The position numbers were made by a program, and so were the translations under genes. From positions 1 through 34,777 of the forward strand of contig JAJXVL010000003.1 in NCBI GenBank assembly GCA_021782175.1: a stretch of 34,777 bases of DNA. Reading direction: 5' to 3'. Within the stretch, counting starts at the first letter, position 1. The number at the start of each line of letters is the position of its first letter. The DNA comes from a bacterium (lineage in GTDB: Bacteria; Patescibacteriota; Minisyncoccia; Phycocordibacterales; PALSA-1337). This document shows, piece after piece, positions 33,860 to 34,777 of the stretch. The notes beneath the pieces are model-generated. The model did no database searches. It worked only from the letters and a program-made list of their open reading frames with translations, and had not been told where the DNA came from.

Positions 33860-33868
33860 TTATCCACA
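33860..33868 (+). promoter_or_regulatory. Single DnaA-box-like site
   Basis: TTATCCACA matches TTATNCACA exactly. Confidence 0.4.
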
Positions 33869-33878
33869 TTAAACATTT

Positions 33879-33908
33879 TTGCCGTACCGCTTAACTATGC
33901 GCTATAAT
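33879..33908 (+). promoter_or_regulatory. Sigma70-like promoter of the S-layer-like gene
   Basis: TTGCCG (33879-33884), 18 nt, TATAAT (33903-33908). Confidence 0.75.
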
Positions 33909-33914
33909 GCTTTG

Positions 33915-34160
33915 CAACGAGCGCCAGATCAGTCGTTTGGTCAGGCGTTCGTCCCAAGGCGTAAGCTCTGGGTTTAGTCGGACTTTGACAACTGAACATG
34001 TCACTTGTCTCTAGTCCTATTTGTGCACCACTAACTCTTCTGTTCGGACGTCGATAGTACGACGGAGGAATGTGGATTTATCAGTCTTACTAGGCAATGT
34101 CTCCCCGAAATATTAAAAAGTAAGACCGGGGGTCCATTGTTAATTATCAAAAACATAGCT
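33915..34160 (+). ncRNA. Long structured 5' leader with predicted H-type pseudoknot
   Basis: ACGAGCGCC.GATCA/TGGTC.GGCGTTCGT stem (33917-33952); CGTCG/CGACG (34049-34064); GTCTTAC 34084-34090 with GTAAGAC 34120-34126, crossing CAATG..CCCCG 34095-34107 with CGGGG..CATTG 34127-34139. Confidence 0.5.
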
Positions 34161-34777
34161 ATGAAAAAAGTTATCTTCGCGACCGGCGTAGCCGTCTTGG
34201 CTCTCGCCACCGTCGTAGGAGCTCAGGGCTATACCTTCTCGGCTAACCTCACGGTTGGTTCGACGGGCTCTGACGTTGTTGCTTTGCAGACGGCTCTTAT
34301 GTCTGCTGGTTTCAACATTCCGGCCATTGCTTCGGGTGCTGCTGCCAAGGGTTACTTTGGTTCGCAGACTCAGGCCGCTGTTAAGCTTTACCAGGCTGCT
34401 CACGGTGTTCCGAATACCGGCTTCGTCGGTCCTCTGACTCGTGCGGCTTTGAACGGCAGTGCTTCAGCTTCGTCAGCCACTGGCTCGACCGTCGCTGTTG
34501 CTTGCCCGGCTGGTTACGTCTGCACGCCGGCTGCCGGCTCGACGACCACCACCACGACCACCGTCACTGGCGGCGCTACCGGCGGTATTACTACCCCGGG
34601 TGTCTCCGGTGTCATGACCGTGACCTCTGGCCCGCTCTCAAGCTCTGTCTTGAACGTCGGTCAGCAGAAGGTTGCCATTGAGACCGTTCGCGTTCAGGCT
34701 CAATACTCTGACATTGATGTCCAGAGCATCACCATGAACCTCGGTAGCAATACGTCTCGGAAGCATCGCCGTATAGG
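34161..34777 (+). CDS. Secreted peptidoglycan-binding-domain / S-layer-like protein (partial, runs off window)
   Basis: Signal peptide MKKVIFATGVAVLALATVVGAQG, PG_binding_1-like LTVGSTGSDVVALQTALMSAGF...KGYFGSQTQAAVKLYQAAHGVPNTGFVGPLTRAALN, Thr-rich linker; open to the window end. Confidence 0.85.
   Translation, partial: MKKVIFATGVAVLALATVVGAQGYTFSANLTVGSTGSDVVALQTALMSAGFNIPAIASGAAAKGYFGSQTQAAVKLYQAAHGVPNTGFVGPLTRAALNGSASASSATGSTVAVACPAGYVCTPAAGSTTTTTTTVTGGATGGITTPGVSGVMTVTSGPLSSSVLNVGQQKVAIETVRVQAQYSDIDVQSITMNLGSNTSRKHRRI

Follow-up and report, generated by a model that had tools for sequence, protein, structure and literature searches.

A candidate boxA-bearing leader RNA, coupled to a DnaA-box promoter, precedes an S-layer-like gene in Paceibacteria

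The S-layer-like gene and its promoter

The window, the whole 34,777-nt stretch analyzed here, ends within an S-layer-like gene of Candidatus Taylorbacteria (Paceibacteria) whose product has a signal-peptide-like start and a PG_binding_1 domain (Table 1). The gene continues on a second contig (C51), with which the window shares a 126-bp identical overlap and on which the reading frame runs on. The last 20 bases of the window (34758-34777) depart from the C51 match and end the frame prematurely; this mismatch is probably an assembly edge artefact. Orthologs are approximately 590-680 aa long, related proteins are encoded in all 35 genus genomes (35/35), and the named relatives belong to Candidatus Taylorbacteria and other Patescibacteria. 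An intrinsic terminator lies 3′ of the gene in every ortholog with a readable end. The gene likely encodes the main surface protein of these ultra-small bacteria. Where one contig holds both genes, in the genus (G000 C51 and relatives) and in other genera, the S-layer-like gene lies ~8-24 kb upstream of a 23S rRNA gene on the same strand.

Table 1. Features of the S-layer-like locus, in window coordinates
Feature	Position	Strand	Basis
Perfect DnaA box TTATCCACA, 34 nt spacer to −10 box	33860..33868	+	Sole copy in window; conserved in orthologous leaders
Sigma-70-like promoter TTGCCG-18-TATAAT	33879..33908	+	Best local match; TATAATG kept in most orthologs
P1, long hairpin at leader 5′ end	33917..33952	+	Fold; swap test z −5.9; pair scan
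P2, CCCA..TGGG hairpin	33953..33972	+	Fold; weak covariation, z −3.3 (scan); missing in some orthologs
P3, boxA-containing hairpin	33980..34017	+	Fold; swap test z −4.3; 5/5 pairs with two-sided changes
boxA GACTTTGACAACTGAACA, rRNA-type Nus-factor site	33981..33998	+	Rank 1 of 69,520 window positions, 16S+23S leader matrix
P4, long hairpin, CCAC..GTGG closure, apical loop GTCGATAG (34050-34057)	34028..34075	+	Swap test z −13.8; model-fitted alignment; loop recurs in other Paceibacteria
5′ half of proposed helix A, AU-rich conserved strand	34084..34090	+	Sequence conserved; pairing unsupported
Stem-loop B, 34095-34107 with 34127-34139, ~21 nt 5′ of ATG	34095..34139	+	Swap test z −9.7; its two helices 83% and 93% paired, all pairs compensatory
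3′ half of proposed helix A, GTAAGAC, inside B loop	34120..34126	+	Perfect complement only in 5 close species
S-layer-like gene, N-terminal PG_binding_1 domain, truncated by contig end	34161..34777	+	Pfam PF01471

No site near the gene is a better sigma-70 match than the promoter named in the original prediction (10/12), and the sequence strings on which that prediction was built are all present where it had placed them. In most orthologs TATAATGnTTTGnAACGAG follows the promoter at an unchanged position. Based on the promoter match and on the conservation of TATAATG and the following bases, transcription likely starts near 33915, which gives a leader of ~246 nt, in keeping with the ~245 nt proposed earlier.

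Upstream of this promoter, a DnaA box is present in 27 of the 29 orthologous leaders, nearly always 40-44 nt (about 42) upstream of the −10 box. Among S-layer-like loci of named genomes, 46/80 carry a DnaA box within 600 nt upstream (23/55 outside the genus), with 6 copies elsewhere in 747 kb. The box is not enriched genome-wide in the close relative G021 (16 vs ~10 expected), and this genome encodes a DnaA with the GGRDHTTV box-binding signature. In the genome of the window itself, perfect DnaA boxes are found 20-50 nt before TATAAT at four promoters (33860-33868; L096, L097, L098). By eye, the other three precede a ribonucleotide reductase-like gene, a mechanosensitive-channel-like gene and another surface-like gene. 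Judged from sequence, the four promoters possibly form a small DnaA regulon; nrd genes are classic DnaA targets.

Conserved helices of the leader RNA

The predicted fold of the leader (−80.8 kcal/mol) beats 200 of 200 dinucleotide shuffles (z = −3.3). For individual helices, we used a swap test across the 29 orthologous leaders, in which the duplex energy of a helix formed by its own two strands is compared with that of strands exchanged between species. The resulting z values are inflated by species kinship, and the distribution over all window pairs (sd 1.3) is a fairer yardstick. When 4,186 window pairs were scanned without bias, the helices that came out on top were P4, P1, B and P3; P2 scored weakly and no long-range pair emerged.

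Strong compensatory change is seen in P1, P3, P4 and the terminal stem B. The 14-bp upstream stem of the original prediction (33917-33952) corresponds to P1, and its stem B pairing (34095-34107 with 34127-34139) is likewise conserved, both with compensatory changes. The CGTCG/CGACG hairpin that it described is present, but as part of the larger conserved hairpin P4 (34028-34075), whose loop sequence is GUCGAUA. The AU-rich stretch 3′ of B is also conserved. In some orthologs (L034, L035, L048, L052, L031, L037), an additional hairpin with a conserved GTCGACC..GGAAC/GGACAT internal loop separates P4 from B. By eye, the P3 loop ACTnAATA and TATTAGT (34081-34085 region) suggested a long-range pairing in some species; this pairing is not found in the unbiased scan. 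We also rejected a candidate leader peptide, ATGTGGATTTATCAGTCTTACTAG, a 7-codon ORF at 34070 behind GGAGG in the window's genome (G000), as unconserved, since its ATG is replaced by AAG, GTG or ACG in many orthologs.

With a covariance model built on P3, P4 and the 3′ domain, 29 of 35 genus genomes each yielded a single copy, and 8 genomes from five other genera of the family yielded weaker ones. All copies, including these 8, lie directly 5′ of an S-layer-like start codon. In the model-fitted alignment, which is biased towards structure by construction (the swap tests are free of that bias), covariation is 0.507 compared with 0.236 when shuffled and at most 0.178 when slid, 84.6% of cells pair compared with 68.4% when shuffled, and 27/31 pairs vary on both sides. 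The reach of the model is limited, as an order-level search with strict filters yielded only genus members and two 23S leaders as matches. Rfam gave no match at the gathering score and chance-level matches only at relaxed thresholds, and the leader RNA represents a candidate RNA family new to Rfam. The leader is thus real, conserved and structured, and the original prediction correctly took it for the long structured leader of an abundant surface protein.

The same prediction had raised a riboswitch-like regulator as another option. Conserved hairpin loops such as GUCGAUAG could form a binding core, but nothing points to a metabolite riboswitch, because the RNA occurs once per genome, always precedes the same structural gene and has no Rfam match at the gathering score and no meaningful one below it. 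A metabolite-sensing role is very unlikely for this RNA.

It had further proposed that the leader folds near the ATG into an H-type pseudoknot of the order A-B-A′-B′, or into two mutually exclusive states; such a switch could control translation. Its appeal lies in a perfect 7-bp complementarity at the right place in five close species. When leaders of relatives are compared for covariation, B, P1, P3 and P4 are supported and helix A is not. The helix (GTCTTAC/GTAAGAC) is perfect in 5 of 28 species only (G000, G028, G008, G026, G033), and as the sequence is invariant in those five they say nothing on pairing. Across the genus, the swap test for helix A is no better than chance (z = +0.7, p = 0.74), and in the model-based alignment 67% of its positions pair compared with 64% when shuffled. 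In 23 of 37 sequences the closing C-G pair is lost with the C itself retained, because TTAC is preserved in the 5′ strand and the 3′ strand varies between GTAA and ATAA; the three A-U pairs are nearly invariant and hence uninformative. Helix A is also missing from the matches of the unbiased scan, and the predicted fold contains B alone. We conclude from these alignments that the helix A region is best read as a conserved AU-rich sequence and not as a demonstrated helix, which makes translational control by a pseudoknot or two-state switch highly improbable.

The rRNA-type boxA

The most informative features of the locus, boxA and the DnaA box, were absent from the original prediction. To score boxA we built a weight matrix from 40 rRNA sites, all of them in 16S or 23S leaders of the genomes under study. 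The rRNA sites were chosen and aligned by eye, a weakness partly answered by a k-mer count and by a held-out genome. In the unprompted count over 17 genus 16S leaders, no 8-mer is shared more widely than CTTTGAAA, which adjoins the −35 string CTTGACTT there, and TTGAAAAT ranks with the top strings of 23S leaders. Among 1.67 million positions in the held-out genome G021, which lies outside the matrix, the top score falls in the 23S leader and the fourth-best in the S-layer leader.

In the window, boxA lies between promoter and gene, ~66 nt 3′ of the predicted start and ~180 nt 5′ of the ATG. It is kept in 28 of the 29 orthologous leaders and is the top-scoring match of the locus in 27 of them; in G019 boxA is present and the other strand scores higher, and in G003 both P3 and boxA are lost and the S-layer-like gene is retained. 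No other primary sequence in the leader is conserved as well. Outside the family, the only order-level matches of the covariance model are two stretches immediately 5′ of 23S rRNA genes, which share GAACTTTGAYAAC, a string that fits the pattern of rRNA boxA, the NusB-S10 site (PMC5725501).

The site recurs in distant Paceibacteria. A strong boxA is found within 450 nt upstream in 36 of 80 S-layer-like loci of named genomes, compared with 1/80 on the reverse strand, and 12 of the 36 boxA-bearing loci belong to other genera, with Vogel-, Kaiser- and Nomurabacteria among them. A long hairpin with a GTCGA loop, mostly closed by CTA/TAG, occurs in 14 of 53 leaders of other Paceibacteria (control words, 0-1). 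When a genus-trained P4 model was run over 55 outside-genus loci, 6 of its 10 matches fell at the expected place with weak E-values (0.06 to 6), so that homology outside the family rests on architecture and not on the P4-model search.

NusB, S10 (NusE), NusG and NusA are all encoded in G021 (tblastn, Pfam). Rho was not found in this one near-complete genome (~837 kb) by tblastn with a partial, approximate query.

The S-layer leader resembles the rRNA operon leaders of E. coli, mycobacteria and the 16S and 23S genes of the same genomes in having a boxA (CTTTGAMAAYNNNATA) that lies 3′ of a sigma-70 promoter and is surrounded by hairpins. In contrast to these, it drives a protein-coding gene, its boxA lies inside a conserved hairpin, and it has P4 and B in addition; a boxC-like GAGAATGTA is found in the 16S leaders and not in the S-layer leader.

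Non-rRNA boxA sites have been described in the mRNA 5′ leaders of suhB and other genes (Baniulyte et al. 2017, PMC5725501), and the S-layer leader is like these in its placement of boxA in an mRNA 5′ leader. It differs in phylum, in its surface-layer gene, in the large structured RNA that holds boxA and in the distance of boxA from the start codon. As the studied sites in E. coli suhB and Citrobacter repress (PMC5725501), Nus factors bound to the S-layer leader could lower translation in the same manner and provide feedback between ribosome supply and coat synthesis. Such repression is improbable here, since the known sites lie at most ~50 nt from the start codon, whereas two hairpins and ~180 nt separate boxA from the ATG in the S-layer leader, and since suhB repression uses Rho, for which the search in G021 gave no match.

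A proposed Nus-factor leader for coat synthesis

We consider it probable, on the strength of sequence comparison, that a Nus-factor (NusB-S10) leader gives the S-layer-like gene rRNA-like elongation, probably timed by DnaA. RNA polymerase would start beside the DnaA box and transcribe P1 and P2 and then the rRNA-type boxA. NusB-S10 would bind boxA, joining NusA and NusG on the polymerase, and this putative antitermination complex would provide rRNA-like elongation and assist the folding of the structured leader, allowing one gene to supply a very abundant protein. P4 and B may shield the mRNA and leave the AU-rich stretch 5′ of the ATG accessible to ribosomes, and the DnaA box may couple initiation to replication or growth. 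Because boxA is enclosed by the covarying P3, this hairpin may tune its accessibility. In rRNA, boxA acts single-stranded, and the partial pairing of boxA within P3 in the predicted fold counts against Nus-factor action.

Since an intrinsic terminator follows the gene in all readable orthologs, there is no long operon in need of antitermination, and since Rho was not found in G021, protection from Rho is not an obvious purpose. Faster elongation or co-transcriptional folding is for these reasons likelier than terminator read-through. Gains in elongation speed and co-transcriptional folding have been proposed for rRNA.

The leader could alternatively act only post-transcriptionally, with the 5′ hairpins and B stabilizing the mRNA and holding the AU-rich start region open, and with the boxA likeness as a relic or an aid to RNA folding alone. 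A stable 5′ hairpin at the predicted start, the best-kept terminal position of stem B, the conserved AU-rich stretch after it, the single gene before the terminator and the search for Rho in G021, which found none, are all consistent with this. We regard it as somewhat unlikely, as it leaves unexplained both the DnaA box and why boxA, of all sequences in the leader, is conserved so well and over such distances.

The EAR element, HK022 put RNA and LoaP leaders are structured processive-antitermination leaders. The S-layer leader resembles them in its structured RNA, in its proposed action on RNA polymerase and in its position ahead of a surface-related gene. Unlike them, it relies on boxA and serves a single gene and not a long operon, and it shows no sequence or Rfam match. 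Long stabilizing untranslated leaders are also found on S-layer-type genes, such as Lactobacillus slpA; the likeness is the long leader, and we know of no boxA or DnaA box reported for slpA-type leaders.

CPR/Patescibacteria regulate envelope synthesis with few transcription factors. A literature search turned up no such element and nothing relevant on S-layer genes with boxA or DnaA in Patescibacteria. A boxA leader and a DnaA box on the likely main surface protein provide a concrete candidate link between ribosome production, replication and the cell coat, and suggest that coat synthesis may keep pace with that of ribosomes and with DNA replication. If Nus factors act as proposed, Nus-factor leaders would extend to a structured mRNA leader in this phylum. 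More tentatively, Paceibacteria may share a class-wide unit in which the main surface-layer gene has rRNA-type Nus elongation and DnaA initiation, and in which the shared factors couple coat, ribosome and chromosome synthesis in regulator-poor cells.

Two further arrangements were observed around boxA sites elsewhere in these genomes. 23S leaders (for example L133, L132 and L129) have a terminator-like hairpin, GCCGCTCAnnnAAGCGGTTTTTCTTT, 3′ of the 23S promoter and 5′ of boxA; it is the most conserved string of the 23S leaders and is attenuator-like in its position before boxA. At L277:2443 (G021 C1:342443), a boxA-like site and a short tRNA-like sequence (GTGCG..GGTTCAAATCC..CGCACC) stand in this order between a promoter and a 648-aa ORF.
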